Source of the DNA: a virus
Length of the DNA: 52,582 nucleotides
Direction: 5' to 3' (one strand)
IMG/VR virus record: IMGVR_UViG_3300013006_001903
Location: 1-52,582 of that record
Below are positions 1,118 to 17,688 of this stretch, in pieces. The notes beneath the pieces were generated by a model, which was not told where the DNA came from, did not search any database, and saw only the letters and a list, made by a program, of their open reading frames with translations. Position 1 is the first letter of the stretch; each line of letters opens with the position of its first letter. A program made the position numbers and the translations under genes.

Positions 1118-1171
1118 ATATTTCTCCTTATTTAGTTGTCACATGATATACTACTTTAATGAAAAAATGTA

Positions 1172-1990
1172 TCATTTTGATTGATATTTTTTAAAATTAT
1201 TAAAATTTAAAGTTAATATGCTTAAGATACCTATTATTATTCCCGGAATGTCGATTTCCCACCACTTGTTACCCATGTACCAAGAATTTGGAATCTTATG
1301 ATGGTTTTGGTGCCATCCGTCAAACGCAAAATATCCCCAGAATAAGTTATTATTAGATTCGTCATTGAGTTGTACTGTTCTATAATTTTCTAAATTGTTA
1401 TGCGGACTGTGAAGTTTAGAATTTAAATAATTTTTTATCAAAACAACAAGAGCTATTCCGGGCATCCAAGTTGTCAAGAACCAATTAACAGAAGTTGTCA
1501 TGATTATAAGGAACCATGTACTGGCAGTTATAAAAAGACCGTATCTACTAAAAAATATTTGAATCCTATCATTGAGTAAGTCGTAAGCATATTTTAAACT
1601 AAAATTATGATAGGGATATAGGAATTGTATTTTCCACCTGTTTAAATATAATGGAGAATGGGGGTCTAATTTGGTATCTGCAAACTTATGATGTAATCTA
1701 TGTTGTGCAGAAAATACAATAGAATTGCCTAATAGACTTTGATTAGCAATCCATAGTCCTATTATATCAAGCCATCTAGGAGCGTGCCATGATTTATGTG
1801 CGAACCTTCTATGATGAAATAGTTGTTCTGCACACCCAACTAGATAATATACACTAAAAATTTTCCAGTATTCTGTCCAGGGCAATGACACAAGGGCGTA
1901 TGCTAGACAAATGTAGGAGAATATAGATGCAATTAATACTATAGGTCTATGAAAATTTATAAAATTTTCAATTTTTTTAAATTGATTCAT
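1172..1990 (-). CDS. Membrane fatty-acid desaturase 1 (FADS family)
   Basis: 272 residues with the three histidine boxes of acyl-CoA/ACP delta-9-type desaturases: HRRFAH (60-65), QHRLHH (96-101) followed by ADTKLDPHSP, and WHQNHH (226-231). Four or more hydrophobic helices flank the boxes. The boxes bind a diiron centre that introduces a double bond into an acyl chain at the inner-membrane face; some relatives make triple bonds. Distal end of the 9-kb operon; its start overlaps the PLP gene stop by four bases. All iron ligands look intact, so it should be active. Regiochemistry and substrate cannot be read from sequence. Confidence 0.93.
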   Translation of the reverse strand: MNQFKKIENFINFHRPIVLIASIFSYICLAYALVSLPWTEYWKIFSVYYLVGCAEQLFHHRRFAHKSWHAPRWLDIIGLWIANQSLLGNSIVFSAQHRLHHKFADTKLDPHSPLYLNRWKIQFLYPYHNFSLKYAYDLLNDRIQIFFSRYGLFITASTWFLIIMTTSVNWFLTTWMPGIALVVLIKNYLNSKLHSPHNNLENYRTVQLNDESNNNLFWGYFAFDGWHQNHHKIPNSWYMGNKWWEIDIPGIIIGILSILTLNFNNFKKYQSK

Positions 1991-2811
1991 CGTAGAAAAT
2001 CAGTAATACAAATTCTATTTACACTGCCTTTTTTATAAAAGTTGTATGCTGGATCAGAGGTAGTGGCCAAATAAATTACATCGGACGGGGTTAGTCCATG
2101 TGTTTTACAAAATAATTCTTGTTGATGTCTATGTTTTTTATACAAATAATCTAAACTAAAATTTTTAAATAACTCAATTGTTAATTTTAAATTATTGCTA
2201 TTAAAATAAAGGTTTCTTAACAATCCACCTAGTGGTATAGATGGTGTTCTCTTAAAAACATACCCAATCCTAAGTTCCGATAGTCCAAACATTTTACTTA
2301 ACCCAACATATACTGTATTAATATTTTTGTTTATTTCTATTTTTTCTATACGACATGATCCTATGTATGCACAGTCTAATGCAATGTCTTCGTGAGTGTT
2401 TATTATTTCATTCCAGTCACTTATGTAATTTCCGTCAATACTACTTGGATTTGTGATATACAACATGTCTCCGGTGTTATAATTTATATTCTTAGGTAAG
2501 TTTAACTGTAGCCAATCATATTCTCCGTCAAATGTTTTTATTGTTTTATTTCTACATTCTACAGCTAATGTATTTAAACCGTCAGTAATTCCGTTGACTG
2601 GATACATAAAAGGAAATTCGCTTAGATCTATAATCGGCAAAAAATATTTAACTATTGATTCCTTTGTATCTCTAAGTAATTGGTGCTTGGTTTCTATATT
2701 TTCTTCAACCAAGTAGTTTTTTAAAATAAACTCCCGGACAACGTGTTTTATGTCTGCATCGAGATACGCTGTTATTTTTCTGCTTTTAGGTAATTGATCA
2801 ATTAGTGTCAT
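1987..2811 (-). CDS. Short PLP-dependent aminotransferase-like protein
   Basis: 274 residues. A fold-type I aminotransferase pattern is visible: PVNGITDGLNTL (cofactor phosphate pocket), a YITNPSSIDGNYI segment, an Asp-Cys-Ala-Tyr strand, then V-G-L-S-K-M-F-G-L-S-E-L-R-I-G-Y, where Lys would form the Schiff base and Arg bind a carboxylate. Class I/II aminotransferases are usually 350-400 residues; this one lacks much of the C-terminal small domain. It sits between two desaturases with four-base overlaps on both sides, so it belongs to the same pathway. It may add an amine to the acyl product or feed an amino-acid head group. Exact reaction unknown. Confidence 0.65.
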   Translation of the reverse strand: MTLIDQLPKSRKITAYLDADIKHVVREFILKNYLVEENIETKHQLLRDTKESIVKYFLPIIDLSEFPFMYPVNGITDGLNTLAVECRNKTIKTFDGEYDWLQLNLPKNINYNTGDMLYITNPSSIDGNYISDWNEIINTHEDIALDCAYIGSCRIEKIEINKNINTVYVGLSKMFGLSELRIGYVFKRTPSIPLGGLLRNLYFNSNNLKLTIELFKNFSLDYLYKKHRHQQELFCKTHGLTPSDVIYLATTSDPAYNFYKKGSVNRICITDFLR

Positions 2812-3533
2812 TTAGCTAATCTTAAAAATATACACAAGGGTTTTAAAAATTTTCCAGGATCGGAGTCGCTACTTTTATAAGGGTGATCGTGATGATTTTT
2901 ATGATAATCTGCTAGAGAAAACCATGCCCATATGTAATTATTGTAGGGTCTTTTCTTTATAGGATCATGCTCAAAAATTGAATTAGAAATTTGTTCAAGC
3001 ATGAATACTAATCCCGATGCCATAATTAGTCCCAATGCTACATCTATAGAAATTAACGATATAATCAATATTGTACACCATATTATGTAAGTCTTATTTC
3101 TATGTAAAAAATAAAGGAATTTATAATCATCTTCTGGATAATCTTTAATTAAAGATTGATATCTAAGTATAATATTATCTATATTATACATCCATCCTAT
3201 AAAACACCGAAATACCCCGTTAGCTGGTCCAAAGTAATCTTTTTCTGTATCAGCGTATCGATGATGATACCTATGACTTAGTGTAAAGCCTAATATATCT
3301 CCTTTAAGGACAAATAAGAATATAAACCCGATAGTGTTTTCGGCGATTCTTGTGAGAATAAATTGTTTATGAGCAATTGCTCTGTGGGCTAAATTATATG
3401 CAAATAGGTAGCTTAAAATGTAAAAAATTATGCATGACACAATAGTTAGTTGTGATATGTCTACAAATATAGGGGACAATATTGTTATCAGCAATATCGG
3501 AATTATAACTAAAAATTTATATAAATTTCCCAT
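2808..3533 (-). CDS. Membrane fatty-acid desaturase 2 (shortest, variant box 2)
   Basis: 241 residues, the shortest of the set. Boxes: HRAIAH (50-55), SHRYHH (86-91), YHKNHH (near 210-215). After box 2 the usual ADTEKDPHSP becomes ADTEKDYFGP, losing the His-Ser-Pro that all but the tandem pair retain; the active-site entrance may differ. The C terminus ends soon after box 3. It begins one base past the ACP stop and overlaps the PLP gene by four bases. Same diiron chemistry expected, with a possibly altered substrate or product such as a triple bond (inference). Confidence 0.9.
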   Translation of the reverse strand: MGNLYKFLVIIPILLITILSPIFVDISQLTIVSCIIFYILSYLFAYNLAHRAIAHKQFILTRIAENTIGFIFLFVLKGDILGFTLSHRYHHRYADTEKDYFGPANGVFRCFIGWMYNIDNIILRYQSLIKDYPEDDYKFLYFLHRNKTYIIWCTILIISLISIDVALGLIMASGLVFMLEQISNSIFEHDPIKKRPYNNYIWAWFSLADYHKNHHDHPYKSSDSDPGKFLKPLCIFLRLAK

Positions 3534-3534
3534 T

Positions 3535-3777
3535 TTACTTTTTTATCAATTCGTCAACAGCATTAGCTAATCCCCCTAGGGTTCTAACTCCGTCTAATCT
3601 ATCTTCAGGAATGAGAATTTTAAATTCATCTTCAATGAGCATTACCATTTCCATTGCGTCTAAACTGTCTCCTCCGAGATCATCGATAATGTGAGTAGTG
3701 CCGCTCATTTCAATTTTTGATTTCTTGAAATGCTTTTTAGCGATGCTGACTACTTTATTTAAAGTTTCTGTTTCCAT
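3535..3777 (-). CDS. Stand-alone acyl carrier protein
   Basis: 80 residues, acidic, with the phosphopantetheine site G-G-D-S-L-D (Ser38) and the helix AMEMVMLIEDEF typical of type II ACPs. This is the only carrier protein in the window. It lies between desaturases 2 and 3 and overlaps the end of the latter by 23 bases. The sequence differs from housekeeping AcpP (no DSLDTVEL helix), so I infer a dedicated carrier, as JamC is for the desaturase/acetylenase JamB. AcpS at 11670-12002 could activate it. Confidence 0.93.
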   Translation of the reverse strand: METETLNKVVSIAKKHFKKSKIEMSGTTHIIDDLGGDSLDAMEMVMLIEDEFKILIPEDRLDGVRTLGGLANAVDELIKK

Positions 3778-4543
3778 TTTTAAAATCCTTTGAAATAAGT
3801 TTTCCTAATAGTCCTTCTAAATCTAATTCCCACCATTTGTTTGTTAAAATTAGCTTTGAAGGATCTGCATGATGATTATTGTGCCAACCAAAACCTAAAG
3901 TAATAATACCTAATATTACATTATTTTGACTAGATTCAGATGTGTTATAATTTCTGTAATTTCCCGGAAAGTTACTTAAATGTAAAATAGTATTTACAGT
4001 CCCTAACCTCACATGCTCAATAATATATGCTATCAGGTATCCGTACAGTATATCTAAATTTATCAGGTAAAGCAACCCCATAAAGATTAAATTTATAAAA
4101 ATAAAATTTTTAGTTGTAAAATTGATTGCATCATCTCTTGATGCCTTAACAAGATTGATTACGCTAGCTCGATCTTCAAAAATACTTTCTATTCTTGTTT
4201 TATTCAAACTCCAGAAATAGAATGCTTGTAAGAAACCGTTTTTAGGACTATGTATATCGCTAGCAGTATCAGTGTGTCTATGATGGTGCCGGTGTTGAAC
4301 CTGCCAATATGCTGTGCTACTATATGCGCTAATAGTTGCCCAGAATGCTAAAATCCAATGTGTAAATCTATTCACACTGAATTGGTTATGTGCGAAGTAT
4401 CTATGACCTGCTGTACCATTCCCAAATGCTATCAACAGCCACACTAAAAATATGAATATTTTTTCTTCTATTAAAAATGCTGACACTACACCTAAAATAG
4501 TAAGTGTTACATTAAAAACGATATATTGTAGAGTTTTTGGCAT
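3755..4543 (-). CDS. Membrane fatty-acid desaturase 3
   Basis: 262 residues. Boxes: HRYFAH (47-52), QHRHHH (83-88) followed by TDTASDIHSP, and WHNNHH in the C-terminal third, with the NTSESSQNN stretch before it that is common in this family. Hydrophobic helices lie at about 8-28 and 30-45, with two more between boxes 2 and 3. It ends inside the ACP gene and starts inside the end of desaturase 4, so translation is coupled. All metal ligands are present. Diverged from its neighbours, so not a recent duplicate. Confidence 0.93.
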   Translation of the reverse strand: MPKTLQYIVFNVTLTILGVVSAFLIEEKIFIFLVWLLIAFGNGTAGHRYFAHNQFSVNRFTHWILAFWATISAYSSTAYWQVQHRHHHRHTDTASDIHSPKNGFLQAFYFWSLNKTRIESIFEDRASVINLVKASRDDAINFTTKNFIFINLIFMGLLYLINLDILYGYLIAYIIEHVRLGTVNTILHLSNFPGNYRNYNTSESSQNNVILGIITLGFGWHNNHHADPSKLILTNKWWELDLEGLLGKLISKDFKNGNRNFK

Positions 4544-5324
4544 CTTTAACTATAAAAAATTTATCAACAAACCAAGCACAAATATCAAACTCCCCTTTAT
4601 TAAAGGCTTGATTGTACTTGGTAGGATCATGATGATGATTGTTATGGTAACCTTCTCCTAGGCTTCCCCATGCCATGAAATGATTATTATGACTGTTATC
4701 AGGAGTATTGTAAGTCCTATAACTTCCTGGAATTTTTAAATGATCTAGTCCTACAACTGCTAAATTTGCAGCAAGATGATAATGGCCGGCAGGTAACAAG
4801 AAGCCGAATAAAAATAACTTCCAATCTATTAATAATGTAACTATTGCAATAACATACCAAAATTTAAAATAATGTCGTTCAATGAACACCAGTGTAGGAT
4901 CTTTCATTAAATCTTTTATACGAAATTCGACACCTTTTTTTGCAAACCACTTATATCCTCTAAATTCCCACGCACCTGTAATAGTATGCCAGAAGCTAGT
5001 AACTGGGCTATGTGTATCTTTCTCAGTATCTGCAAACAGGTGATGATGACGATGGTTCATTGCATAAACTATAGGACTTTTAGATGCCAACAGGATTGTC
5101 CAATAAGAAAGAAGCTTATGTTTAAACAATGTTGTCTGGAAACTTCTGTGAGTGAAGTATCTATGAAATGCAATATTGTTTCCAATTACTTTATTAAATT
5201 GTGCTATAAAATATGAAACCCAGAATAACGTCCAATCGTTTATTGATATGCAATACCACATACTAAGGGGAATACTCAACCAAGCTGCTGAAAGTAGTAT
5301 TCTATGTTTCCATTCTGTTTTCAT
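4512..5324 (-). CDS. Membrane fatty-acid desaturase 4
   Basis: 270 residues. Boxes: HRYFTH (54-59), NHRHHH (90-95) with ADTEKDTHSP, and YHNNHH followed by HDPTKY. The membrane helices match delta-9-type desaturases. It overlaps desaturase 3 by 32 bases and desaturase 5 by four bases. It resembles desaturase 6 in the NTxDxxxNxHFxxWxxLGEGxHNNHH region, suggesting common descent. Intact diiron ligands imply an active enzyme. Confidence 0.93.
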   Translation of the reverse strand: MKTEWKHRILLSAAWLSIPLSMWYCISINDWTLFWVSYFIAQFNKVIGNNIAFHRYFTHRSFQTTLFKHKLLSYWTILLASKSPIVYAMNHRHHHLFADTEKDTHSPVTSFWHTITGAWEFRGYKWFAKKGVEFRIKDLMKDPTLVFIERHYFKFWYVIAIVTLLIDWKLFLFGFLLPAGHYHLAANLAVVGLDHLKIPGSYRTYNTPDNSHNNHFMAWGSLGEGYHNNHHHDPTKYNQAFNKGEFDICAWFVDKFFIVKDAKNSTIYRF

Positions 5325-6055
5325 TTTTTTAGAAATTTAATAATTTGGTAAGATGGATCAACTTCAGACCATTTGTTTTTAAGATTTGCGTTGCCTGGAT
5401 TTATGTGATGATTCTTGTGGAGGGTGCTTCCTCCGGATAAAAATGCTAACCACGTTATATTTATAGCGGTATATTCTCCATCTACTGCTTTATGTAGCAG
5501 TGAGTTGATTAACATCTCTGAATGAAATGTTAAGATCATAGCAGCCAACAACGACATTCCAATAGGTGGACTGATAAGAAATACTAATACCAATGATGAA
5601 AGTACAAAGTGTTTACATAGTTTTTCTATCTTGATTAATTGAGTATCTTTCAAGTAATCTCTTATAACGAAAATAGGAACATCCATTGGCTTCAGTAACC
5701 ATCCAAAATATGAAACATAAAATCCCTTACTGGGAGAGTGTGGGTCTAAAGAAGTATCACTGTGAGCATGATGATATCTGTGTATCCTGGACCAAGTGAT
5801 AGGACCTCCCATCAATCCAAAACATCCTATTACTGCTAGTGCATACTTTATGGCGTTGTTCTTAGGTTCCCACGACTTATGTGAAAACAGTTTATGAAAT
5901 CCTGCCTGTATGCCTGCCCAATATATTAGTATATAGAATATTAAAAAATAAAAAATATTAATACCGATAAAAGGCAATAGTATCAAAAATAAAATCTGTA
6001 ATGGAAGATTGAATTTAAGATAATATGATCTAGATACATCTGCTAAAGAGTTCAT
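5321..6055 (-). CDS. Membrane fatty-acid desaturase 5 (diverged)
   Basis: 244 residues. Boxes: HKLFSH (54-59; Lys replaces the usual Arg), IHRYHH (91-96) with SDTSLDPHSP, and LHKNHH followed by INPGNANL. The asparagine-rich stretch normally preceding box 3 is replaced by a TAINITWLAFLSGGSTL-type segment. Four-base overlaps on both sides keep it in the operon. One of the more diverged copies; iron ligands complete. Confidence 0.92.
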   Translation of the reverse strand: MNSLADVSRSYYLKFNLPLQILFLILLPFIGINIFYFLIFYILIYWAGIQAGFHKLFSHKSWEPKNNAIKYALAVIGCFGLMGGPITWSRIHRYHHAHSDTSLDPHSPSKGFYVSYFGWLLKPMDVPIFVIRDYLKDTQLIKIEKLCKHFVLSSLVLVFLISPPIGMSLLAAMILTFHSEMLINSLLHKAVDGEYTAINITWLAFLSGGSTLHKNHHINPGNANLKNKWSEVDPSYQIIKFLKK

Positions 6056-6819
6056 TTTAAAAACTTGTCAATTATTACAGCACTCATATCCCATTCCCAA
6101 GCCTTCTTAGTAAATGCAAAATTATATTCACTTGGTTTAGCATGATGATTATTATGCAACCCTTCTCCTAATGTTAACCAGTTCCAGAAATGACTATTAA
6201 CAGTTTCATCATTGGTATTAAAATTTCTGTATCCTTGACTTGGTAGGTGTAGGGGTAGACTTAATACAGCAGAGCTCCACCAACTAAATCCAGCAGGTAT
6301 CATATAACAAAACAGAACAAGGTTAATATCAATTGCGGCAAGTATCAATATATATGATAATATCACCAACAAATAATATTTGTGTAACTTAATTAGAAAA
6401 GGATTCTTAAGAAGATCTTTGATCATGCCTAACGGTACTACCTTTGTAGGATTATCTTTATACCAGTGCCAGAAACTTCTCCAATATCCTATTTCGTGAG
6501 GACTGTGTAAATCTTTTCCTCTATCGCTATTAAGATGGTGATATCTATGTACTGAGACATATTGTAGGGTTGTTCCGGTGGTACTTAATACAGCCAACAC
6601 CGCTACAATCTTTTCTTTCCATGCTGGCATTTTAAAACTTCTATGTGTGAAATATCTATGTTGTCCAATGCTTGCTCCTACTTTGCTAATCAACAATACT
6701 GCAAATACTAAAGATAGATAGTATTCTATACTTGCGAGATATGTGAGGTATATTAAACCAGGTAATACAGCCCATGTGTTAATCTGCTGTAATGTTCTCA
6801 GTATTACTATGTTATTCAT
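6052..6819 (-). CDS. Membrane fatty-acid desaturase 6
   Basis: 255 residues. Boxes: HRYFTH (54-59), VHRYHH (90-95) with NSDRGKDLHSP, and LHNNHH followed by AKPSEY. Hydrophobic helices at about 19-45 and between boxes 2 and 3. The N-terminal half and the region before box 3 are close in style to desaturase 4. Overlaps both neighbours by four bases. Complete ligand set; acyl-chain desaturation at the membrane expected. Confidence 0.93.
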   Translation of the reverse strand: MNNIVILRTLQQINTWAVLPGLIYLTYLASIEYYLSLVFAVLLISKVGASIGQHRYFTHRSFKMPAWKEKIVAVLAVLSTTGTTLQYVSVHRYHHLNSDRGKDLHSPHEIGYWRSFWHWYKDNPTKVVPLGMIKDLLKNPFLIKLHKYYLLVILSYILILAAIDINLVLFCYMIPAGFSWWSSAVLSLPLHLPSQGYRNFNTNDETVNSHFWNWLTLGEGLHNNHHAKPSEYNFAFTKKAWEWDMSAVIIDKFLK

Positions 6820-7577
6820 GATTTTTTCATAAAAAGTTTTTCGATGATTATTGCAGGAAAGTCAAATTGACCTTTCTCTGTTACATATGAGTAAGATCCT
6901 GCATTAGCATGATGCTGATTATGATATCCTTCATTCCATGTAAACCACTTTAAGAATGTATTGTTGCTGCTTTTATCATCAGTATTAAACGGTCGTGTAC
7001 CATATTCTGGCCTATGTCCTAATACATTTACTAAACCTGCGGCTATAAAATTATGTATAACCATATAACTTAGTAACCAGCCAGTTAGTGTAGGTCCTAG
7101 GATAACTAATGATAATACAAGCAAGAGTGTGTTTACTTTAAAATAATGTTTATGCATCCATTTATGCACAGGGTCCCTAATTAGATCTGACACAAATTTA
7201 TTCTCAATAGCATACTTTTCATTTCGAACATAGAACGTAACTTTCCACCAAGGTCGTGTTATATGAGGATCTTTATCTGTATCTGCATATGCATGGTGTT
7301 GTCGATGCACTCCTGTGTATGTTATACTAGTTCCGTACAGTAAGGGTGTAGCAAACGCATGTAGTATATATTCTTTCCACCTTGATGTTTTAAAACTCTT
7401 ATGACACCACAGTCGATGTAATGCTACTTCGTTGCCTACTGCGTTAAAGATTTTTGCAATGATCATACCTAGCAATAGCATAGGAAAACTAAAATTAGTG
7501 ATAAGAGTAAACAATAAAATAGTAAAATGAATGCCAAGCAATAACATTAGTTTATGGTGAAAGGTTAAATTTTTCAT
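6816..7577 (-). CDS. Membrane fatty-acid desaturase 7 (tandem pair, copy A)
   Basis: 253 residues. Boxes: HRLWCH (54-59), VHRQHH (90-95) with ADTDKDPHITRPWWK, and YHNQHH followed by ANAGSY. The HRLW form of box 1 is closest to classical acyl-CoA delta-9 desaturases. It is plainly a paralogue of the next gene: both share DPHITRPWWK, FYVRNE, RDPVHxWxHK and VLGHRPEYG. The pair shows an in-place tandem duplication; the two overlap by 26 bases. The HSP after box 2 is replaced by HIT in both copies. Confidence 0.94.
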   Translation of the reverse strand: MKNLTFHHKLMLLLGIHFTILLFTLITNFSFPMLLLGMIIAKIFNAVGNEVALHRLWCHKSFKTSRWKEYILHAFATPLLYGTSITYTGVHRQHHAYADTDKDPHITRPWWKVTFYVRNEKYAIENKFVSDLIRDPVHKWMHKHYFKVNTLLLVLSLVILGPTLTGWLLSYMVIHNFIAAGLVNVLGHRPEYGTRPFNTDDKSSNNTFLKWFTWNEGYHNQHHANAGSYSYVTEKGQFDFPAIIIEKLFMKKS

Positions 7578-8376
7578 CTTTTTTCCAAATAAATTTTACA
7601 ATTTTCTTTTGTTCTTTTTTCATAAACAATAGATAGATTATCCATGCACCAACATCTAAGTTAGTTTTCTTTGTCATAAATGACCACGAATTAGGATTTG
7701 CATGATGATGATTATGCAACCCCTCATTAAGGCTGAATAGTTGTACTATCCAATTATTTGCACTCTGGTCATCAGTTGCAAATGGACGTGATCCGTATTC
7801 AGGCCGATGTCCTAATACATTTAGTACACCGGCAGCAATAAAACTATGAATGACTATGTAACTTAATATCCATCCAGTCCATACCGGACCTAGTGCCAGC
7901 AAGAAGGTTATTAATAAGATGCTGTTAATTTTCCAATAATTTTTATGTATCCATCTATGTACAGGATCTCTAACTAAGTCTTTAACAAACTTAGATTCAA
8001 TTTCGTAATCCTCATTTCTGACATAGAATACTACTTTCCACCAAGGTCGTGTTATATGAGGATCGCGATCAGTATCACTGTATGCATGATGTTGCCTGTG
8101 AACTCCGGCATAGGTTATACTAGTGCCGTATAACAAAGGTGTTGAAAATATGTGCAATACATATTCTTTCCATCTGTCTGTTTGATACGACCTATGAGCC
8201 CATAATCGATGTAAGCCAGCTTCATTGCCTATCAAATGCCAAATCTTATGTACTAAAAACATTGTTAAAAAAATAGTCCAATCCCAATGAAATACTAATA
8301 CCCATGCATAGAGTAACAGGTGTATGCTTAGTAGTAGCATTAATTTGTTATGAAAAGTTAATTTTTGTGTGAACAT
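7552..8376 (-). CDS. Membrane fatty-acid desaturase 8 (tandem pair, copy B)
   Basis: 274 residues. Boxes: HRLWAH (56-61), VHRQHH (92-97) with SDTDRDPHITRP, and LHNHHH followed by ANPNSW. It has about 20 extra, basic C-terminal residues (KKEQKKIVKFIWKKDEK) that copy A lacks. The shared blocks with desaturase 7 identify it as a duplicate, but many substitutions show the copies have been kept and diverged, which argues for two distinct steps. Confidence 0.94.
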   Translation of the reverse strand: MFTQKLTFHNKLMLLLSIHLLLYAWVLVFHWDWTIFLTMFLVHKIWHLIGNEAGLHRLWAHRSYQTDRWKEYVLHIFSTPLLYGTSITYAGVHRQHHAYSDTDRDPHITRPWWKVVFYVRNEDYEIESKFVKDLVRDPVHRWIHKNYWKINSILLITFLLALGPVWTGWILSYIVIHSFIAAGVLNVLGHRPEYGSRPFATDDQSANNWIVQLFSLNEGLHNHHHANPNSWSFMTKKTNLDVGAWIIYLLFMKKEQKKIVKFIWKKDEKFNLSP

Positions 8377-8388
8377 TTAAAATATACT

Positions 8389-9549
8389 TTATGTTTTATC
8401 TACTCTGATTCCCCCACTAACTCCCCCAAACCCAAAACTTAATTTTGCAAAATTTAATGTTTCTTTATAAATTGGATTCTTTAAGACAATGGTATGCTTA
8501 CAATCAACTGTGTTGTCAGTGCCAGAAGTATACGGGATCCAACCTTGATTTAATCCTGCTAACGAATACGCCAGTTCAATTCCGGCGGAACTAGACATAG
8601 TATGTCCCACGGACCCCTTTAATCCATAAATGTATGTTTCATAGGGCAGGGAATCTAGAGCTAATATCTCTGCTTCATCGCCTACTTTAGTTGCAGTAAT
8701 GTGACAGTTAATCGAATCAAGTTTAATGTTATTATTGTCTGTAATTTCGTTTAGCAAGAACTTCCCTGCAGAACCGTCTGGGCTAGGTGCAGTTAAATTA
8801 TAATAGTCGTTATATAGACTAATTTTTCCAATAGTCCCAAGATTTTTTCTAACATTATTTTCTTTAGTTAAAATGTAACAAGCGACTCCTTCACCTAATG
8901 CCATTCCGGATCTGTTAACATCGAACGGCTTTACTGATTCCTTAGTACATACTCCCATGCTATTAAAAATATAAGTAGTGTAAGGATGTGTTGCACAGTC
9001 AACACCAAACACTAATACTGCTTCGCATTGATTTGAATTTAAAAACTTTTCAGCAATATCAAACGCTGTTATAAACGCACTACACGCTTGATTAATCATA
9101 AAGCTAGGACCTGTAAGACCAAGATGCCTACTTACAGTTGTACATATAGAACTTTGTGTTACTGTTGCTCCCCAACGAGGGCTAATCATTCTTTTTTCTG
9201 CAAATAGTGCTTTCCAAACCATGCCGCCTGTTTCTTGAGACCCTTGTAAGGTTACTCCTATTACAGGTGTATTTTTTGGTAGGTCCATCCCCTCCACACA
9301 TCTTCCTGCAGCTAGTACAGCTAACTTAATTGCACGGGGCATATTAGATTCTAGATAATTTAATTTTTCTAATTCTAAATCTAAGTCATCATCCGTTAAT
9401 GGAATATCAAATTTTGGAAGTCCTGTTAAAGGTGCATTTTCGTGCCTTGTAAAATTAGCAGAATTACCTTTTAGATAATTTTCAATGCAATTACTATAAC
9501 TAGTTCCATTAGCATCTAAGAGTTCAACATTGTTAATTACAGTTTTCAT
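8389..9549 (-). CDS. Beta-ketoacyl-ACP synthase (KS), stand-alone
   Basis: 386 residues of thiolase fold. Catalytic residues are visible: Cys156 in NQACSAFITAF, His283 in CHITATKVGDEAE (family form HGTGTxxGDxxE), Lys311 and His316 in GLKGSVGHTMSSSAG. So the Cys-His-His triad is present, although the first His motif is altered to HITAT. It should condense malonyl-ACP with an acyl chain, or act as an acyl transferase. No partner ketoreductase, dehydratase or acyltransferase is nearby. The gene overlaps the first desaturase by four bases and is the second gene of the operon. Confidence 0.92.
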   Translation of the reverse strand: MKTVINNVELLDANGTSYSNCIENYLKGNSANFTRHENAPLTGLPKFDIPLTDDDLDLELEKLNYLESNMPRAIKLAVLAAGRCVEGMDLPKNTPVIGVTLQGSQETGGMVWKALFAEKRMISPRWGATVTQSSICTTVSRHLGLTGPSFMINQACSAFITAFDIAEKFLNSNQCEAVLVFGVDCATHPYTTYIFNSMGVCTKESVKPFDVNRSGMALGEGVACYILTKENNVRKNLGTIGKISLYNDYYNLTAPSPDGSAGKFLLNEITDNNNIKLDSINCHITATKVGDEAEILALDSLPYETYIYGLKGSVGHTMSSSAGIELAYSLAGLNQGWIPYTSGTDNTVDCKHTIVLKNPIYKETLNFAKLSFGFGGVSGGIRVDKT

Positions 9550-10322
9550 TTTTTAACCATTCTAATAAACCATGAAGGTGGATCAATTTCCCACCACTTC
9601 TCACCTTGTTTCGACTGATAAGGACGAGTGTGATGATTATTATGCCATCCTTCTCCTAAACTCATAATATTTGCAATCCAGCTATTCTTAGCTGTGTCAT
9701 TAACCTGATGATTTATATAACCGTGTATATGTCCAAATACTGTAACTGCCGCTACTCCATTCAAACAACCAGTAGCCGGCATGGCGTATGCAAAAATTAC
9801 TAACCAGGGATTGATTAACAATAACAGTATAACATAAACAAAGATAACTTTAAAGTAATGTTTGTGCAAAAATACAATCAATGGATCTTTTATCACATCG
9901 CGAATCAACTTCTTGCTAATATCAGCTCTTTTCCAGTCGTATGTATATGCTTTCCACCAACCTATATGACGAGGAGAATGCGGATCCTTTTCAGTATCGG
10001 CATGTTGATGATGGTACCTATGTAATGCTACCCAACTAATGATGGATCCTAATGTAGCAAGTGTACCAATTACTGCTAATAATACTTCTACAGATCTGTA
10101 AGTCTTATATGTTCGATGGCTAAAATATCTATGATAGCCGGCGTTTGCCCCGATAACTCCAAAAATTAAAAACGATATGATAAATGTGGAAAAGTAACCT
10201 ATACTAAAATCAACAATAAGGTAACAAATGCCTATGATAGACAACAGGATGTTAACTAACTGTAGAGATTTAATTTGTGTATTGAAGTTTTGGTTTGAGA
10301 AAAAAGAAAACATATGTGTCAT
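9546..10322 (-). CDS. Membrane fatty-acid desaturase 9 (first gene of operon)
   Basis: 258 residues. Boxes: HRYFSH (64-69), LHRYHH (100-105) with ADTEKDPHSP, and WHNNHH followed by TRPYQS. The C terminus has the EKWWEIDPPSW motif seen in several copies. The first three residues (MTH) precede a second possible start at 10313; I keep 10322 because of its spacing from the promoter-like AATAAATA at 10341-10348. First gene of the long reverse-strand operon, followed by the ketosynthase with a four-base overlap. Confidence 0.94.
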   Translation of the reverse strand: MTHMFSFFSNQNFNTQIKSLQLVNILLSIIGICYLIVDFSIGYFSTFIISFLIFGVIGANAGYHRYFSHRTYKTYRSVEVLLAVIGTLATLGSIISWVALHRYHHQHADTEKDPHSPRHIGWWKAYTYDWKRADISKKLIRDVIKDPLIVFLHKHYFKVIFVYVILLLLINPWLVIFAYAMPATGCLNGVAAVTVFGHIHGYINHQVNDTAKNSWIANIMSLGEGWHNNHHTRPYQSKQGEKWWEIDPPSWFIRMVKK

Positions 10323-10340
10323 ACTCTTCAGTGTAGCACA

Positions 10341-10348
10341 TATTTATT
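10341..10348 (-). promoter_or_regulatory. NATAAATA late-type promoter of the desaturase operon
   Basis: Reverse-strand AATAAATA, 18 bases before the start of desaturase 9 and in the only non-coding gap upstream of the operon. It would drive the whole block down to the rubredoxin. Motif-based inference. Confidence 0.5.
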
Positions 10349-10369
10349 AGCAATTTTCTGGTTAAGAAA

Positions 10370-11299
10370 TTAAGTAGGGTGTAATAATTCTCTAACTAGT
10401 TCTTCGTAGATACTCCAACCTGGGGGTTGCAAAGAAAACTCAACAAAGGTATCTGTCGATTCTGTAAAGGGAGAAGAGTTGATTTCACCTAAAACCCAAC
10501 CATTGTCAGTTTCTAAAAAATCAATGCCTGCATGTTTTAAATTATATAGTTTACATATCTTTTTAGATATTTTAATTAGACTAGAGTCTACAGTTTTACT
10601 AATATCGTATGCCTTAGTTTGAGTGATAGTGTTCTCGTAGTTAAATTTCCAGTGAACTTCACTTCGTCTAAGGAAGGCTCTAATCATTTCGCCATTTAGC
10701 ATCTGTATACGTACACAATCAGAAAATTTATTATTTTTTGATACAAACTCTTGTACAAAGAAATCTTCGTAAGAATCTCCTAATGGAGACCTAGAGTTTA
10801 TTAGAGAGATCATAGAATACAAATCGCAAAATTCTAATAGATTTTTGATTAGATAGTGACCTTGTCCTAATCCGCTATTGGGAACTTTTACTACACAAGG
10901 ATATCCTATTTCTTGTTCAACTAATTTGGCAATATTTCCCGTCATGTTGTTTGTAGGACCTGCTAATGTGTTTAGATCCATATTTTTAGGAACTGGTATT
11001 CCTATATTGCCACAGTCAATCGCAGATAAAAATTTGTCATCTGCTCTTGCTGAATCTCTAACATGGTTGATAACATGTACACCCTTTGACTCTAATATAG
11101 TTAAAAATCTAAAATGCGACATGTTTACAGGACCCATCATGTTAAAAACTGCAATGGGAATCTTTTTGTTAAATTGCACACCGGGCGTTACTGGTGTAAC
11201 TTCTACTCCAAATTTCTGTCCGGCTTTTTTCCAGTCTTCCATTTCGCTAAGTCTATAGGGAAATACAGTTTGAGGTACATTAAAAGAAAGATAAATCAT
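10370..11299 (-). CDS. ATP-grasp ligase (RimK-like)
   Basis: 309 residues. ATP-grasp features: PCVVKVPNSGLGQGHYL (flexible ATP-binding loop), DFFVQEFV, then CVRIQMLNGEMIRAFLRRS and a metal-binding end, AGIDFLETDNGWVLGEINSSP, with Asp, Glu and Asn in the expected places. Such enzymes join a carboxylate, via an acyl-phosphate, to an amine or thiol. RimK relatives add amino acids to peptides or build amide bonds. It lies just upstream of the desaturase operon on the same strand and could link an acyl chain to an amine head group. Substrate unknown. Confidence 0.85.
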   Translation of the reverse strand: MIYLSFNVPQTVFPYRLSEMEDWKKAGQKFGVEVTPVTPGVQFNKKIPIAVFNMMGPVNMSHFRFLTILESKGVHVINHVRDSARADDKFLSAIDCGNIGIPVPKNMDLNTLAGPTNNMTGNIAKLVEQEIGYPCVVKVPNSGLGQGHYLIKNLLEFCDLYSMISLINSRSPLGDSYEDFFVQEFVSKNNKFSDCVRIQMLNGEMIRAFLRRSEVHWKFNYENTITQTKAYDISKTVDSSLIKISKKICKLYNLKHAGIDFLETDNGWVLGEINSSPFTESTDTFVEFSLQPPGWSIYEELVRELLHPT

Positions 11300-11311
11300 G
11301 AAATTTTAATA

Positions 11312-11686
11312 TTATGGAGTATCGATAGGTACTTCGACACCTTCTGTTGCCAAATATATATCCGCCGGATGTACAATAATTCCAACAGAATTACAGTATT
11401 CTTGTCTTGTTACAAGCCAAGAACTCACAATAGGATCAGCTGACCAATTTGCAAAGTCAACAGGATCAACACCGTGATATAGACTGTTGTGGTATAGGGT
11501 CAAGCCGTCTTCACTTTCTGCCCATTCCTCTGATAATTTTCCTTGGCTTATGTAAGTAAGGTTATAGTATTCTTTTACATATTCTGGTATAACAGTAGTC
11601 CACCAGGGAATATTTACATTAGGTCTATCATATTTCCTAATAACCCTAAGATGAGGTGTTGACAATGTTTTAAATTGCATGGTCAT
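11312..11686 (-). CDS. Uncharacterised 124-residue protein
   Basis: No family recognised. The protein is Trp- and Tyr-rich (IPWWTTVIPEY, KLSEEWAESEDGLTLYHNSLYHG, FANWSADPIVSSWLVTRQEY), soluble, with no signal or membrane segment. It starts after a good ribosome-binding site (AGGGGAG) and overlaps the end of acpS by 17 bases. A NATAAATA site 25 bases upstream may give it its own transcript. It sits among acyl-carrier genes and may bind or modify their product; this rests on position alone. Confidence 0.7.
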   Translation of the reverse strand: MTMQFKTLSTPHLRVIRKYDRPNVNIPWWTTVIPEYVKEYYNLTYISQGKLSEEWAESEDGLTLYHNSLYHGVDPVDFANWSADPIVSSWLVTRQEYCNSVGIIVHPADIYLATEGVEVPIDTP

Positions 11687-12002
11687 AATTTCTCCCCTGA
11701 AAATGTAACGTATTTATTGCAACAGCTACGCAATATTCGCGTTCGTGACTAATGCTGACGTATAGGTTAGGGTGTTCGAATACATAAGGCGCACCGTTTG
11801 TATGATTTAAGATAGAAAACTTTTTTGAACTATTTGTTAATTTAAATATAGCTTCTTTTGCAGCCCACCTACTGGCAATATATTGTAGATGATTCTTGCT
11901 CTTCTTTAATTCTGCTTTTTCAGATTCCGTCAATATCTTTTTTGACCAGAGGTTTATATTTTTTTTAAACCTGTTAATTTTAACTATATCGATACCAATC
12001 AT
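11670..12002 (-). CDS. acpS: Holo-ACP synthase (phosphopantetheinyl transferase)
   Basis: 110 residues. The AcpS motifs are in order: M-I-G-I-D-I-V-K-I-N-R-F at the N terminus (first metal-binding Asp), W-A-A-K-E-A-I-F-K in the middle (catalytic Glu and Lys), and V-S-I-S-H-E-R-E-Y-C-V-A-V-A near residue 85. It transfers 4'-phosphopantetheine from CoA to the serine of an ACP. Length is slightly below the usual 120-126. The only carrier in the window is the ACP at 3535-3777, its obvious client. Its presence suggests the host enzyme does not load this ACP efficiently. Confidence 0.93.
   Translation of the reverse strand: MIGIDIVKINRFKKNINLWSKKILTESEKAELKKSKNHLQYIASRWAAKEAIFKLTNSSKKFSILNHTNGAPYVFEHPNLYVSISHEREYCVAVAINTLHFQGRNYDHAI
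11711..11718 (-). promoter_or_regulatory. NATAAATA late-type promoter inside acpS 3' end
   Basis: Reverse-strand AATAAATA, 25 bases before the start of the 124-residue gene (11312-11686), with AGGGGAG in between. Confidence 0.4.
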
Positions 12003-12003
12003 T

Positions 12004-12588
12004 TTAATTATAAACCATTTTTGATTTTGAAAATTGTATTACCACAATTGTTTTTTCATTTAGTCCATCCATACCAGCTAACAACTTTTTAAAACCTAAA
12101 TATTTAGATTTAGTATGGGGTTCTAAAATTTCAACCTCAGATGTCATATACTGGGGAAATTCTTCTAGCATTGCATCCTTTACTCTTTTCCATGTATACG
12201 AAAATCTGGTTACAAGAAATCCTGTGTAAATATTTTTACTTTCTGCAATCTCTATACATTTTTGCATAACAGTATTAAAATTTAAAGGTTGCTGTGTTCT
12301 CTTAGAAAATAACTGATCAGAATCTTCATATAGGAATAAAGGACTCCACGCTGGTATTGCTTCCCAAAATAGCATTACGCAAAATGCTAACAACTTTTTC
12401 TCTGCGTTTCGAACTCCTACAATGTGCATATTATAGTTTTCTAAAAATATTTTTTCAATAAGATCAAGTGCTCTGCGCTGTAACCCAGTTGCTACTGTAT
12501 CAACTCCGTAAATATACTGATGCTTTTTAACCAAACGAATGAGATCCGGTAAGTCTTCTTCAGTACATAGATAAGCTTCTCGTTGCAT
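12004..12588 (-). CDS. GNAT-like acyltransferase
   Basis: 194 residues. The N-terminal REAYLCTEEDLPDLIRLVKKHQ helix, a LLAFCVMLFWEAIPAW beta-strand pair and a central IEIAESKNIYTGFLVTR segment resemble the GNAT fold, but the acetyl-CoA loop (Q/R-x-x-G-x-G/A) is not clear. It ends one base before the acpS start. Similar proteins occur in this cluster at 15175-15750 and 17696-18298. GNAT proteins move acyl groups from CoA or ACP to amines; here it could use the ACP-bound acyl chain (inference). Divergent from the Rieske gene. Confidence 0.6.
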   Translation of the reverse strand: MQREAYLCTEEDLPDLIRLVKKHQYIYGVDTVATGLQRRALDLIEKIFLENYNMHIVGVRNAEKKLLAFCVMLFWEAIPAWSPLFLYEDSDQLFSKRTQQPLNFNTVMQKCIEIAESKNIYTGFLVTRFSYTWKRVKDAMLEEFPQYMTSEVEILEPHTKSKYLGFKKLLAGMDGLNEKTIVVIQFSKSKMVYN

Positions 12589-12594
12589 ATAAAA

Positions 12595-12602
12595 TATTTA
12601 TG
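12595..12602 (-). promoter_or_regulatory. NATAAATA site abutting the GNAT start
   Basis: Reverse-strand CATAAATA, followed by TTTTAT and the ATG at 12588. If used like a T4 late promoter, the transcript would begin at or next to the start codon. Confidence 0.4.
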
Positions 12603-12618
12603 TGCTACAATAATGCTT

Positions 12619-12626
12619 TATAAATA
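12619..12626 (+). promoter_or_regulatory. NATAAATA site abutting the Rieske gene start
   Basis: Forward-strand TATAAATA, an exact match to the T4 late consensus, followed by TTTT and ATG at 12631. It forms a back-to-back pair with the reverse site at 12595-12602. A near-leaderless transcript is implied. Confidence 0.45.
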
Positions 12627-12630
12627 TTTT

Positions 12631-13470: not shown

Positions 13471-14376
13471 CTTTCTTAATTCTTCTTCAGTGTATTCGTA
13501 GTGAGTATTAGATGCTTGATCCATATATGTTGTCTGAAAGTGAATCATAAAATCTGGACGAGTTACTATAGGATCTCCGTCTGCACCTTCGTATCCTACT
13601 AATTTTATTTTATCTTGTACATCGGGCCAAATACTCCTATGGATAGCAGACCTGCTACTCCATGAACTAATCTTTCCCGGGATTTCGTCGTTGAGTAATT
13701 TTTTAACTAACGGTACTTCATTGTACGACAATAATAATTCGGGTGTATATTCATACCAATCTCCTATTGCTATTCTACCAATTGATTTAGCATAAGTAGA
13801 ACACGAGTATCCGTCTTCGTTTAAAATTAATCTCCATGTAGATTTCTTACTAAAATCTTTATTTGCATCCCTGCGCCAGTACGGTTCACCGTCGCAAAAA
13901 ACTGGAATATTATCAAGGTAATCGAACCATGCGAGTCTTGCTATTCTTCCTGCTCTTGGAATTAGGGTCTTTTGAAATAAATCAAAGGCATCGTTTTCAA
14001 AAAATTTTTGTAAATTAAAATCTATTATTTTATAATTAATGTTTAGATCTTTACAGAGGGCAACGGCACAATTCACATCTCGAATATTATAATTATTCTC
14101 TAATCTAAAAATAAATGTATTGTGTTTAATTCCTACAGCATGAAATGTTCGCACAACCATTTCGCTGTCAACTCCACCTGATAACATTACATCAAATGGT
14201 TCATTATACGAATCTCGCATAATCCGGGCATTATTAAATAATGCATCTCTATAAGAAGGAAGATTTTTATCTATTTGTTTATTAAAATGAATTTTAAAAA
14301 TAGAATTTGAATCAGACTTTTTGCCATATTCTACAGCATCAAAACTGTAGCTCATCCATTGATTGTGTCGTTCCAT
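13456..14376 (-). CDS. Asparagine-synthetase-like ATP pyrophosphatase (PP-loop)
   Basis: 306 residues. The PP-loop S-G-G-V-D-S lies at 66-71 in a FDVMLSGGVDSEMVV strand-loop-helix, the ATP-binding signature of the asparagine synthetase C-terminal domain. No N-terminal glutaminase Cys2 is present, so ammonia or another amine would come from elsewhere. Such enzymes activate a carboxylate as acyl-AMP and form an amide; beta-lactam synthetase is a relative. The C terminus is Tyr/Glu-rich (HYEYTEEELRKL). Adjacent to desaturases 10 and 11, hence a candidate for closing or amidating the acyl product. Confidence 0.8.
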   Translation of the reverse strand: MERHNQWMSYSFDAVEYGKKSDSNSIFKIHFNKQIDKNLPSYRDALFNNARIMRDSYNEPFDVMLSGGVDSEMVVRTFHAVGIKHNTFIFRLENNYNIRDVNCAVALCKDLNINYKIIDFNLQKFFENDAFDLFQKTLIPRAGRIARLAWFDYLDNIPVFCDGEPYWRRDANKDFSKKSTWRLILNEDGYSCSTYAKSIGRIAIGDWYEYTPELLLSYNEVPLVKKLLNDEIPGKISSWSSRSAIHRSIWPDVQDKIKLVGYEGADGDPIVTRPDFMIHFQTTYMDQASNTHYEYTEEELRKLILN

Positions 14377-14396
14377 TAGTTGGTTCTAATTATTCA

Positions 14397-15194
14397 TTAA
14401 ATTTTAATTAGTTTAATTACAAGTGCTGAAATATCAATTTCCCACCACTTATCTCCAAAGTTAAATCTCTTAGGATATCGATGGTGATTATTATGCCATG
14501 CTTCGCCCCAACTAGGAATAGCCCATAACCAGTTATTAGTACTTTGATCATTTAGTGAATGCGACCTATATCCGCCCAGCCAATTTGGTTTGTGACCTAC
14601 ATAGTTAACGACATTGCTCATAATAGCAGTTATTGCAGCCGGCATCCAATGGAAAAATACCATCAACCAAAATCCCCCAATTAAAAATAGTACAAGGCTA
14701 TAAGTTGCAATAATAAGAAAATAATATCTGTGTAAGAATTGTTGATATCTGTCAGTTACTAATGCTCTCATTCTCCATTTTGTATCCTTGTCAACTTCGC
14801 TTATATAATCCATCATAAAGATTTTTACACCTTTATATAACGGACTATGCGGGTCGTTGGGCTTATCACTCTTTAAGTGATGGTTGATATGAATAGCTAC
14901 CCATGCAAGTGGACTACCAGTTCCTGCAAAACATCCTAATAACGAAAATAATTTAGTTAGCCAAGGAAATGTTTTATAACTGTTATGCGTCATTTGCCTA
15001 TGATATGTTACTACAATTCCGAGACATCCATAGATAAAATAGCCTAACAAAATTAACGATAGTTCAGTTGTACCGATACCGTAGATATATGTACCTAATA
15101 TTGATCCTACTAATGTTGTAATTAAAAATATCTGTGCGCCAGCAGTGCTGCTTGAAAAATAATTCTTCATGAAATTATTTAGTATGCGGATCAT
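14397..15194 (-). CDS. Membrane fatty-acid desaturase 10
   Basis: 265 residues. Boxes: HRQMTH (65-70), IHINHH (101-106; Ile replaces the usual Arg) with KSDKPNDPHSP, and WHNNHH followed by RYPKRF. It ends with the DKWWEIDISAL motif shared with desaturases 1, 3 and 9. The modified first and second boxes keep every histidine. Its start overlaps a GNAT-like gene by 20 bases, forming a second short desaturase operon (16499 to 14397). Confidence 0.92.
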   Translation of the reverse strand: MIRILNNFMKNYFSSSTAGAQIFLITTLVGSILGTYIYGIGTTELSLILLGYFIYGCLGIVVTYHRQMTHNSYKTFPWLTKLFSLLGCFAGTGSPLAWVAIHINHHLKSDKPNDPHSPLYKGVKIFMMDYISEVDKDTKWRMRALVTDRYQQFLHRYYFLIIATYSLVLFLIGGFWLMVFFHWMPAAITAIMSNVVNYVGHKPNWLGGYRSHSLNDQSTNNWLWAIPSWGEAWHNNHHRYPKRFNFGDKWWEIDISALVIKLIKI

Positions 15195-15750
15195 ACCCTT
15201 TAAGTTTTCTAGCTTTTATAACAATGTTATCTGGTTTTAATTCTTGTCCCATTAATCTCCAATACAATTCATATTGAGGTTTTGTATTCGCCGGAACAAC
15301 GTCTAAAGTTATTAAATCGTACCTTCCATTAAAACCCCAAGGGTTCTTTTTCCACTGGCGTTCATATACACGCTCTAAACGTTCTGCAATGCAGTAAAAA
15401 TACTGAAAGTAGCCTTTTTCTTCAGCCATTTCAAATGCATATTTAAACAATAACCCAAATTCGGGTCTACTAAAACTAAAGCGCTCTTTAAACACAGTAG
15501 TAAATAATCCTGTTATTGCCCAAAATTTTCCGCGCATTTTACTTTCATAAAAACCAATGCTGACCCAGCTAACTAAGTTGTTATTTTCAAAATATCCAAT
15601 ACTTATTAAGTTATCCGAATCTTTCATTAGTTGACGACACTTCTCGGTAGATACTGGCCGAGTACCGCCCACTTTTTTATTCGATAATGCAATTCTAACG
15701 CATTCATCGGTGTACTCGGGCCCAAGTATTTGAACACCAGTAGTTATCAT
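15175..15750 (-). CDS. GNAT-like acyltransferase between desaturases
   Basis: 191 residues. N-terminal GPEYTDECVRIALSNKK helix, then DNLISIGYFENNNLVSWVSIGF, a beta-hairpin typical of GNAT folds, and a FKYAFEMAEEKGYFQYFYCIAERLERVYE helix. A canonical acetyl-CoA loop is not obvious, so the donor could be another thioester. It overlaps desaturase 11 by four bases and desaturase 10 by 20, so all three are co-translated. A role in moving or trapping the unsaturated acyl chain is possible. Confidence 0.6.
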   Translation of the reverse strand: MITTGVQILGPEYTDECVRIALSNKKVGGTRPVSTEKCRQLMKDSDNLISIGYFENNNLVSWVSIGFYESKMRGKFWAITGLFTTVFKERFSFSRPEFGLLFKYAFEMAEEKGYFQYFYCIAERLERVYERQWKKNPWGFNGRYDLITLDVVPANTKPQYELYWRLMGQELKPDNIVIKARKLKGYDPHTK

Positions 15751-16499
15751 TTTTTAATTAAGTTGATAATAGCTGCTGCTGGATCTATTTCAAAAGATTT
15801 AATCTTGTGGCTTATTAATGCAGGATTCTTATGATGATTATTGTGCCACGCATCGCCCATTATGAAAGGAAACAAAAATACATTATTAGTGCTGTTATCA
15901 TTAGTTTCAAAATTTCTATAACCAAATGTATGACCGAAATAGTTAAACGAATTTTGAGAAACCTGTACTAACACCACAGGCAATGCCCACAAAAAATACA
16001 GTAGTTGAATATCAACAATTGCCAAAAGCAAAATATAAAAAAATACATATAGTAGATAATGTTTGTTAAGGTTAAGTTGCTCTTCTGTCATCAAATCCTT
16101 GACAAGAAATTTATTAATCTTATCACTATGATTAGTGAGATGTTTCAAGCCAAATAATTTAAATCCTAAATTTTTTGGGCTGTGCGGATCTTTATCTGTG
16201 TCGCTAAATCCGTGATGTAGTCTATGAATGTATACCCAACCGATCGGGCTACCTCTGCACATGATTACGCTGACAAACGTAAACAACTTTTTTATTATAC
16301 CGTATCTAAATTCAAAACTCTTATGTGAATAATATCTGTGCAGGGTAATGCTTATGCCTACTATATTAAAAATATAGAACACTAACACTGTAGATGTTAT
16401 AGATAAGGCAGTAAAGTCTACACCGAAGAACCCAATAATTGTAATTATTATTGCAAGTAATTGTAATTTTGATACAGCAGAGGAACTGGCAGAGAACAT
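15747..16499 (-). CDS. Membrane fatty-acid desaturase 11
   Basis: 250 residues. Boxes: HRYYSH (54-59), IHRLHH (91-96) with SDTDKDPHSP, and WHNNHH followed by KNPALI. Four predicted membrane helices. It leads a three-gene unit with a GNAT-like gene and desaturase 10. An exact TATAAATA lies five bases before its ATG, so the unit can be expressed apart from the main operon. All ligands intact. Confidence 0.93.
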   Translation of the reverse strand: MFSASSSAVSKLQLLAIIITIIGFFGVDFTALSITSTVLVFYIFNIVGISITLHRYYSHKSFEFRYGIIKKLFTFVSVIMCRGSPIGWVYIHRLHHGFSDTDKDPHSPKNLGFKLFGLKHLTNHSDKINKFLVKDLMTEEQLNLNKHYLLYVFFYILLLAIVDIQLLYFLWALPVVLVQVSQNSFNYFGHTFGYRNFETNDNSTNNVFLFPFIMGDAWHNNHHKNPALISHKIKSFEIDPAAAIINLIKK

Positions 16500-16504
16500 A
16501 GAGA

Positions 16505-16512
16505 TATTTATA
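16505..16512 (-). promoter_or_regulatory. NATAAATA site abutting desaturase 11
   Basis: Reverse-strand TATAAATA followed by TCTCT and the ATG at 16499. It overlaps the stop codon of the upstream oxygenase gene. Confidence 0.45.
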
Positions 16513-17062: not shown

Positions 17063-17086
17063 CAGATAGTATACAAAAATATTTAG

Positions 17087-17118: not shown

Positions 17119-17143
17119 TAGTAATATTCTTTAACCAACTGTT

Positions 17144-17680: not shown

Positions 17681-17688
17681 TAGTTAAA

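Follow-up and report, generated by a model that had tools for sequence, protein, structure and literature searches.

A phage gene cassette with nine desaturases, an acyl carrier protein and a ketosynthase, probably for carrier-bound desaturation of an acyl chain

The stretch of DNA analyzed here (the window, W) is the whole 52,582-base IMG/VR virus record IMGVR_UViG_3300013006_001903, which has 36% GC and eight tRNA genes and is a piece of a large tailed phage. Its minus strand carries an operon of about 10 kb (1172-11299), whose 13 genes, none with a broken frame, encode nine membrane fatty acid desaturases, an acyl carrier protein (ACP), a beta-ketoacyl-ACP synthase (ketosynthase, KS), a pyridoxal phosphate (PLP) enzyme and an ATP-grasp ligase. 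We consider it probable, though by no means certain, that this cassette and the adjoining genes for a holo-ACP synthase (AcpS) and a GNAT-like protein (11670-12588) form a self-contained, horizontally exchanged system in which phage enzymes repeatedly desaturate an acyl chain of host origin held on the ACP, so that infection yields one specialized, multiply unsaturated acyl product, set free as an acid or amide. The features are collected in Table 1, where G and L numbers are our labels of related contigs and loci.

An earlier reading by a model that saw only the letters and open reading frames of the window (the sequence-only reading) had placed nine desaturases in a single translationally coupled operon, and the spacing of the genes between 1172 and 10322 bears this out. 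Adjacent genes overlap by 4, 23, 26 or 32 nucleotides (nt) or are separated by gaps of 1 to 12 nt, a spacing from which we infer translational coupling. The PLP enzyme and the ATP-grasp ligase had gone unmentioned in that reading. It had also described eleven desaturases in the region with all their histidine boxes intact; in our alignment, nine histidines and one asparagine (H60, H65, H97, H100, H101, H194, N214, H227, H230 and H231 in the numbering of desaturase 1) are invariant in 11 of 11 sequences. Every one shows the arrangement HxxxxH, HxxHH, H, HxxHH of PF00487 and stearoyl-CoA-type desaturases, at an overall identity to the first of 21 to 28%. Stearoyl-CoA-type di-iron desaturases use just such a set of nine histidines and an asparagine as ligands, and since all eleven keep it, none looks dead. 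Nine desaturases of the window matched Pfam FA_desaturase above the cut-off and desaturase 2 matched it below; desaturase 1 had no match in the Pfam scan and matched NCBIfam DesA_fam_desat below the cut-off of that model.

The ACP, the KS with its Cys156/His283/His316 set and the AcpS were all found where they had been reported, and each is backed by Pfam matches. In the KS, C156, H283, K311 and H316 are invariant in three relatives, the best PDB matches are KAS II/FabF structures, and identity is 99% in G001 and 71% in G002. Its score of 98 bits against the NCBIfam equivalog TIGR03150 (cut-off, 494 bits) falls far under the cut-off, which marks it as a divergent subfamily, and a scan of genome contigs with the KS alignment found no relative. 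Wherever a cassette contig extends over this end, as three do, the AcpS gene adjoins the cassette; it lies outside the block shared with G001 at 89% identity.

The cassette was found in four virus contigs in total, with conserved gene order: the window, G001 (IMGVR_UViG_3300034093_001553), G002 (IMGVR_UViG_3300027712_001262, 112.9 kb) and L150 (IMGVR_UViG_3300034280_001203). By BLASTN, W:1143-7577 and W:7584-11307 matched G001 in the same order at 89%, with almost no match outside. As this identity spans exactly one block and the flanks differ, the cassette behaves as an exchangeable unit with sharp ends. In G002, the ACP, the KS, the ATP-grasp ligase, the AcpS and seven of the desaturases have orthologues (50 to 86% protein identity) arranged as in the window, and the PLP gene and two desaturases are missing, while L150 repeats the downstream end of the cassette as desaturase-desaturase-ACP-desaturase-PLP enzyme-desaturase. 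Both G001 and G002 are phage contigs, with baseplate wedge initiator, tail fiber and ribonucleotide reductase families, and they were the only contigs retrieved by viral scans with the KS, desaturase 4, ATP-grasp and ferritin-like proteins. All 13 cassette genes are under purifying selection: the ratio of nonsynonymous to synonymous rates (dN/dS) between the window and G001 is lowest for the KS (0.019), is 0.022 for desaturase 4 and 0.054 for the ACP, and reaches at most 0.105. All nine desaturases are maintained, not only a core. Because other virus contigs repeat the set in this order and under such selection, the ACP, the KS and the desaturases make up one unit, as the sequence-only reading had supposed.

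That reading had further treated the eleven desaturases as one array, which did not hold. The two at 14397 and 15747 fall in with desaturases from L028, L045, L052 and L053, which have no ACP/KS cassette beside them, and W 12583-18900 shares Rieske, asparagine-synthase-like and small oxygenase-like genes with the surroundings of these loci. This grouping and the recurrence of the island without ACP and KS resolve the eleven into nine cassette desaturases plus two that are evolutionarily separate. In the trees, each cassette desaturase pairs with a counterpart in another phage and not with its operon neighbor, and the nine are parted by long internal branches, which argues for distinct, fixed roles. 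The bacterial sequences sampled fall together in a clade of their own; deep placements are unsure, since this sample consisted of loci found by sequence pattern and had neither JamB nor polyyne references, and since some of the viral rows sit on long branches. A bacterial scan with the desaturase 9 alignment kept 80 loci, and no array of ACP, KS and desaturases was present among the bacterial loci fetched from it. Close homologues did not prove to be ordinary desaturases of one bacterial genus, an outcome that would have refuted the sequence-only reading: within this pattern-limited sample, the best bacterial matches reached 28 to 38% identity and came from many phyla. Across 274 gammaproteobacterial genomes, the highest number of PF00487 matches seen per whole genome was at least nine; scoring stopped at nine candidates in many of them, and the true maximum may be higher. 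The desaturase array of the window is far beyond chance.

We found no system of this composition described in the open-access literature searched, in line with the sequence-only reading, which knew of none. Simpler desaturase-ACP relatives exist, however, and to that extent the system is not isolated. ACP and AcpS scans revealed overlapping or abutting desaturase and ACP genes in about ten further phage contigs, in some of which (L139-L142 and L167) an AcpS gene lies beside the pair; in L163, a gene for a baseplate wedge protein lies 3 kb away from the pair. Seven of the pair desaturases form their own clade. Like the cassette, the pairs join a desaturase to an ACP, sometimes with AcpS; unlike it, they comprise one or two desaturases and have no KS beside them. 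A conserved gene for a 205-amino-acid protein (A12) precedes or follows their desaturases, and there is a radical SAM gene in the vicinity. A12 had no Pfam or PDB match, and its assignment as a GNAT was not adopted, as its similarity to the family of the GNAT-like protein at 12004 is only weak. A G015 ketosynthase (179107; L172 contig), situated 50 kb from the ACP and beside a heme oxygenase gene, was not counted as a pair member. The FabF-like ketosynthase at L184 6622-7848 (G015, 193 kb), with heme oxygenase, ClpS-like and Hsp20-like genes as neighbors, is a second one in a phage genome and unrelated to the KS of the cassette.

A different fragment of the cassette recurs in pelagiphages (Pelagibacter phage Mosig EXVC030M and L189-L191), whose overlapping desaturase and PLP genes are homologous to W 1172/1987, with 36 to 38% identity between the PLP enzymes. 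Mosig differs in having one desaturase only and no ACP match in the 30.6 kb around the pair. In these phages, the overlap of desaturase and compact PLP genes (L003 14941-16354, L189, L190 and L191) is followed by oxygenase-like genes. It looks as though the cassette of the window was put together from such building blocks, with the KS and the ATP-grasp ligase added.

The sister cassettes of G001 and G002 contain ferritin-like di-iron proteins of 300 amino acids, inserted among the desaturase genes. In four sequences, with 21 to 24% identity to the first and 88% within one pair, E70, E99xxH102, E154 and E184xxH187 are all kept. These residues make up the 2-His/4-carboxylate di-iron set known from acyl-ACP desaturases, aldehyde-deformylating oxygenases (ADO) and R2. 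The best matches of a structural model (pLDDT 72) were aldehyde-deformylating oxygenases and R2, all weak and none better than E 5.7e-3. We treat these proteins as a new family of ADO-like soluble di-iron enzymes.

Three proteins could take part in releasing the product. The ATP-grasp ligase scored 78.6 bits against TIGR00768 (curated cut-off, 143 bits), which places it in the superfamily and outside the subfamily. For the PLP enzyme, the only sensible PDB match was HisC (1h1c); matches to low-complexity repeat proteins were judged spurious. The product of the gene at 12004 is a probable GNAT-fold acyltransferase: all matches of its model, a low-confidence one (pLDDT 52), were GNATs, with a best E value of 1.4e-5, and the call also draws on its position next to AcpS. 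A further neighbor, the protein encoded at 11312, belongs to a family of about 100 to 125 amino acids with a motif like RPNxxVPFW that adjoins these islands in many phages and is possibly a substrate or accessory protein.

We propose the following for ACP-bound desaturation, the order of its steps, the source of the chain, its release and the product. The phage AcpS would turn the phage ACP into its holo form, and the FabF-type KS would take a chain from host acyl-ACP and condense it with malonyl on the phage ACP, host enzymes completing the elongation cycle; with the chain drawn from host acyl-ACP, no acyl-AMP ligase would be needed. The nine membrane di-iron desaturases, joined in the sister phages by the soluble ADO-like enzymes, would then act serially on the ACP-bound chain and introduce several double, possibly triple, bonds. 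Finally, the ATP-grasp ligase, the GNAT-like acyltransferase or the PLP enzyme would release the chain to an amine or carboxylate acceptor. We would guess that the phage gains not simple control of fluidity but a bioactive lipid or a membrane-active compound. A more specific version, which we hold only tentatively, is a complete acyl-carrier-bound line in which one ACP passes through nine position-specific desaturases to give a polyene, polyyne or lipid amide for infection, as a module exchanged among phages whose evolutionary start was the desaturase-ACP pair. Several points weigh against our proposal. The cassette desaturases may not act on acyl-ACP, the KS could have another role, and the release enzyme is ambiguous among the three candidates. 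All records are metagenomic fragments. Moreover, the window has lost the ferritin-like genes of its sisters, and with the genes missing from G002 this means that the product may vary.

The main rival remains a role in membrane lipids, with the desaturases acting on host phospholipid chains, or on acyl-ACP that feeds glycerolipid acyltransferases, to make the membrane more fluid, as has been suggested for desaturases of cyanophages and Arctic phages, and the ACP and KS only boosting supply. We regard it as unlikely, though some points favor it. The cassette desaturases match PF00487 of lipid desaturases, as do those of cyanophages and the Arctic vFAD, likewise in aquatic tailed phages, and most desaturase-bearing viral loci that we found, and so most phages here, carry just one such gene. 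Cyanophage desaturases (Roitman 2018, as cited in PMC7300359) are reported to be single genes of the lipid type. The phage desaturases described so far in the literature, the Arctic vFAD among them, occur singly and have been assigned to membrane lipids (PMC7300359). These genes, however, come without an ACP or KS, and in the tree the viral singles that were tested are placed apart from the cassette groups. Nine enzymes that are divergent and conserved one by one far exceed the needs of fluidity control, which would also leave unexplained the ACP, KS and ligase dedicated to the cassette, the AcpS beside it and the recurrence of the desaturase-ACP pairing. Lipidation, which we rate lower, would have the GNAT-like or ATP-grasp enzyme move the ACP-bound unsaturated chain onto a phage or host peptide or protein, perhaps of the 11312 type. 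It would account for the GNAT-like gene adjoining AcpS in three contigs and for the small 11312-like proteins nearby, and RimK/LysX-type ATP-grasp enzymes do modify protein or carrier-protein termini; nevertheless, 11312-like genes also occur in phages without an ACP (L052 and L053), and the GNAT assignment comes from a low-confidence model.

Lower again, we place the capture of a bacterial-type polyyne or alkyne cluster, in which the desaturases would be JamB/CayB/PgnE-like acetylenases acting on the ACP and ending in a free polyyne acid. Like JamABC of the jamaicamide pathway, the cassette encodes a membrane di-iron desaturase with a dedicated ACP (desaturase 3 overlaps it), carrier-bound action being suggested by analogy only. 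Like the clusters for caryoynencin, protegencin, cepacin and collimonin, it has an ACP and several desaturases that would act together; the ACP and desaturases share one transcript as in JamBC and the polyyne triad (PMC8406139), and nine desaturations could yield several triple bonds. On the other hand, polyyne clusters need seven core genes, for an acyl-AMP ligase, an ACP, three desaturases, a thioesterase and a rubredoxin (PMC8406139), which include neither a KS nor an ATP-grasp ligase, and the cassette has triple the desaturases. An AMP-binding enzyme (PF00501) is absent from the window, G001, G002 and the L150 contig, all four being fragments. No thioesterase, dehydratase or rubredoxin family turned up among the window open reading frames scanned, the other contigs not having been searched separately for thioesterase or rubredoxin, and the short-chain dehydrogenase-type matches in the window are epimerase-like; the sequence-only reading had likewise seen no acyl-AMP ligase, thioesterase or dehydratase. 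With no acyl-AMP ligase found, the cassette is neither JamABC nor a polyyne cluster; from JamABC it also differs in having nine desaturases versus one, in its added KS, ATP-grasp and PLP genes and in being phage-borne. With no ligase, thioesterase or rubredoxin gene detected, it is not filed as a polyyne cluster and may nonetheless work similarly, and the separate clade of the sampled bacterial desaturases also speaks against capture. Polyunsaturated fatty acid synthases (pfa) differ too: the KS and ACP of the cassette stand alone and are not part of a multidomain KS-AT-ACP-KR-DH protein, and the PfaA match was far below the cut-off. Finally, the second island shows that such phages gather many metabolic genes, but chance hoarding or decay of unrelated auxiliary genes, or an assembly artifact, is hardly credible given the dN/dS values of the 13 genes, the order shared by four contigs and the intact frames; we rejected it on the selection data and the block match to G001.

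Beyond the cassette, the second island (W 12583-18900) comprises Rieske and asparagine-synthase-like genes, two desaturases, a conserved gene of about 190 amino acids at 15175 and small oxygenase-like genes; it recurs without the ACP/KS cassette in L028, L045, L052, L053, L142 and L172/L186. Just past the cassette end, the window encodes a rubrerythrin-type protein (656-1117), which the sister cassettes do not have. The tRNA genes (Gly, Thr, Cys, Trp, two Leu, Ser and Val) are scattered over about 7 kb (22843-29621), and a B12-binding-type radical SAM protein (23275-24792) has family members in L052, L053, L143 and L172. A run of genes at 32192-45585, for nucleotide-sugar epimerases, a dTDP-sugar isomerase, an aminotransferase, GT17 and GT34 glycosyltransferases and a split transketolase-like pair, is likely for glycan synthesis. 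At 49661-50287, there is a weak match, below the cut-off, to an Mpo1-like 2-hydroxy fatty acid dioxygenase. A gene for a TctC receptor (PF03401 above the cut-off) is present in related phage contigs that bear these islands, as in L139 6013-6909, L045 5511-6422, L052 and L053, sometimes with several such periplasmic binding proteins per contig. TctC receptor genes are typical of Burkholderiales and other Pseudomonadota, which offers a lead, short of assigning a host to the window.

Table 1. Features of the desaturase cassette, its surroundings and related phage loci
Feature	Sequence	Position	Strand	Remarks
Exchangeable block	W	1143..11307		Boundaries by BLASTN; 89% identity to G001, which has two additional genes
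Desaturase 1 (last cassette gene)	W	1172..1990	-	Nine His and Asn kept; orthologues G001 27416 (92%), L150 3022 (65%)
Compact PLP fold-type I enzyme, aminotransferase/HisC-like	W	1987..2811	-	TIGR01141 hisC 1.9e-5; K173, D146, N121, R266 kept in four phage sequences
Desaturase 2	W	2808..3533	-	Pfam FA_desaturase below cut-off; orthologues in G001, L150
ACP	W	3535..3777	-	PF00550 3e-11; Ser38 in GDSLD (DSL motif); kept in cassettes and pairs
Desaturase 3	W	3755..4543	-	PF00487 5e-16; 23-nt overlap with ACP gene
Desaturase 4	W	4512..5324	-	PF00487 6e-11; 86% identity in G002
Desaturase 5	W	5321..6055	-	PF00487 1e-12
Desaturase 6	W	6052..6819	-	PF00487 1e-13
Desaturase 7	W	6816..7577	-	PF00487 4e-18; ferritin-like di-iron genes between desaturases 7 and 8 in G001, G002
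Desaturase 8	W	7552..8376	-	Nearest paralogue desaturase 7, ~62%
KS, KAS II/FabF type	W	8389..9549	-	PF00109 2e-20; C156, H283, K311, H316
Desaturase 9	W	9546..10322	-	PF00487 1e-15
ATP-grasp ligase, RimK/LysX/ArgX-like (first cassette gene)	W	10370..11299	-	TIGR00768 5e-22, TIGR02144 6e-19, both below cut-off; PDB 3vpb 5.5e-7
Small protein beside these islands	W	11312..11686	-	Recurrent neighbor across phage contigs
AcpS	W	11670..12002	-	PF01648 2.8e-14; also adjoins cassette in G001, G002
Probable GNAT-fold acyltransferase	W	12004..12588	-	Adjoins AcpS in all three cassette contigs covering this end
Second-island desaturase, outside cassette	W	14397..15194	-	Groups with desaturases of phages without ACP/KS
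Second-island desaturase, outside cassette	W	15747..16499	-	Groups with desaturases of phages without ACP/KS
Ferritin-like di-iron family	L005, L007	L005 13818-15626; L007 10714-12046, 14293-15207		Only in the two sister cassettes; full 2-His/4-carboxylate set
11312-like copies	L005/L006, L007, L052, L053, L142, L151	L005/L006 (G001 39409-40124); L007 6036-6757; L052 14672; L053 7048; L142 6918; L151 10902		
Desaturase-ACP pairs	L139-L142, L151, L156, L162, L163, L167, L172, L174			One or two desaturases each
A12 (205-amino-acid protein)	L139, L151, L162, L163, L167, L172, L174	L151 10215-10844; L139 7285-7914; L162 8538-9143; L163 8582-9205; L167 702-1331; L172 6640-7260; L174 6354-6986		

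Phage auxiliary genes usually top up single host reactions. This phage appears to own a multistep biosynthetic line, and its sampled cassette desaturases group with those of other phages, not with bacterial ones. The cassette would supply nine different acyl-ACP (or lipid) desaturases, possibly acting at distinct positions. How a pathway of this kind comes to be assembled may be read from the graded series that leads from a single desaturase-ACP pair up to the full cassette. Should the proposed scheme hold, viruses of aquatic bacteria produce specialized lipids or small molecules of their own, and the cassette would be a virus-encoded pathway for a fatty-acyl specialized metabolite, passed as a module from phage to phage.

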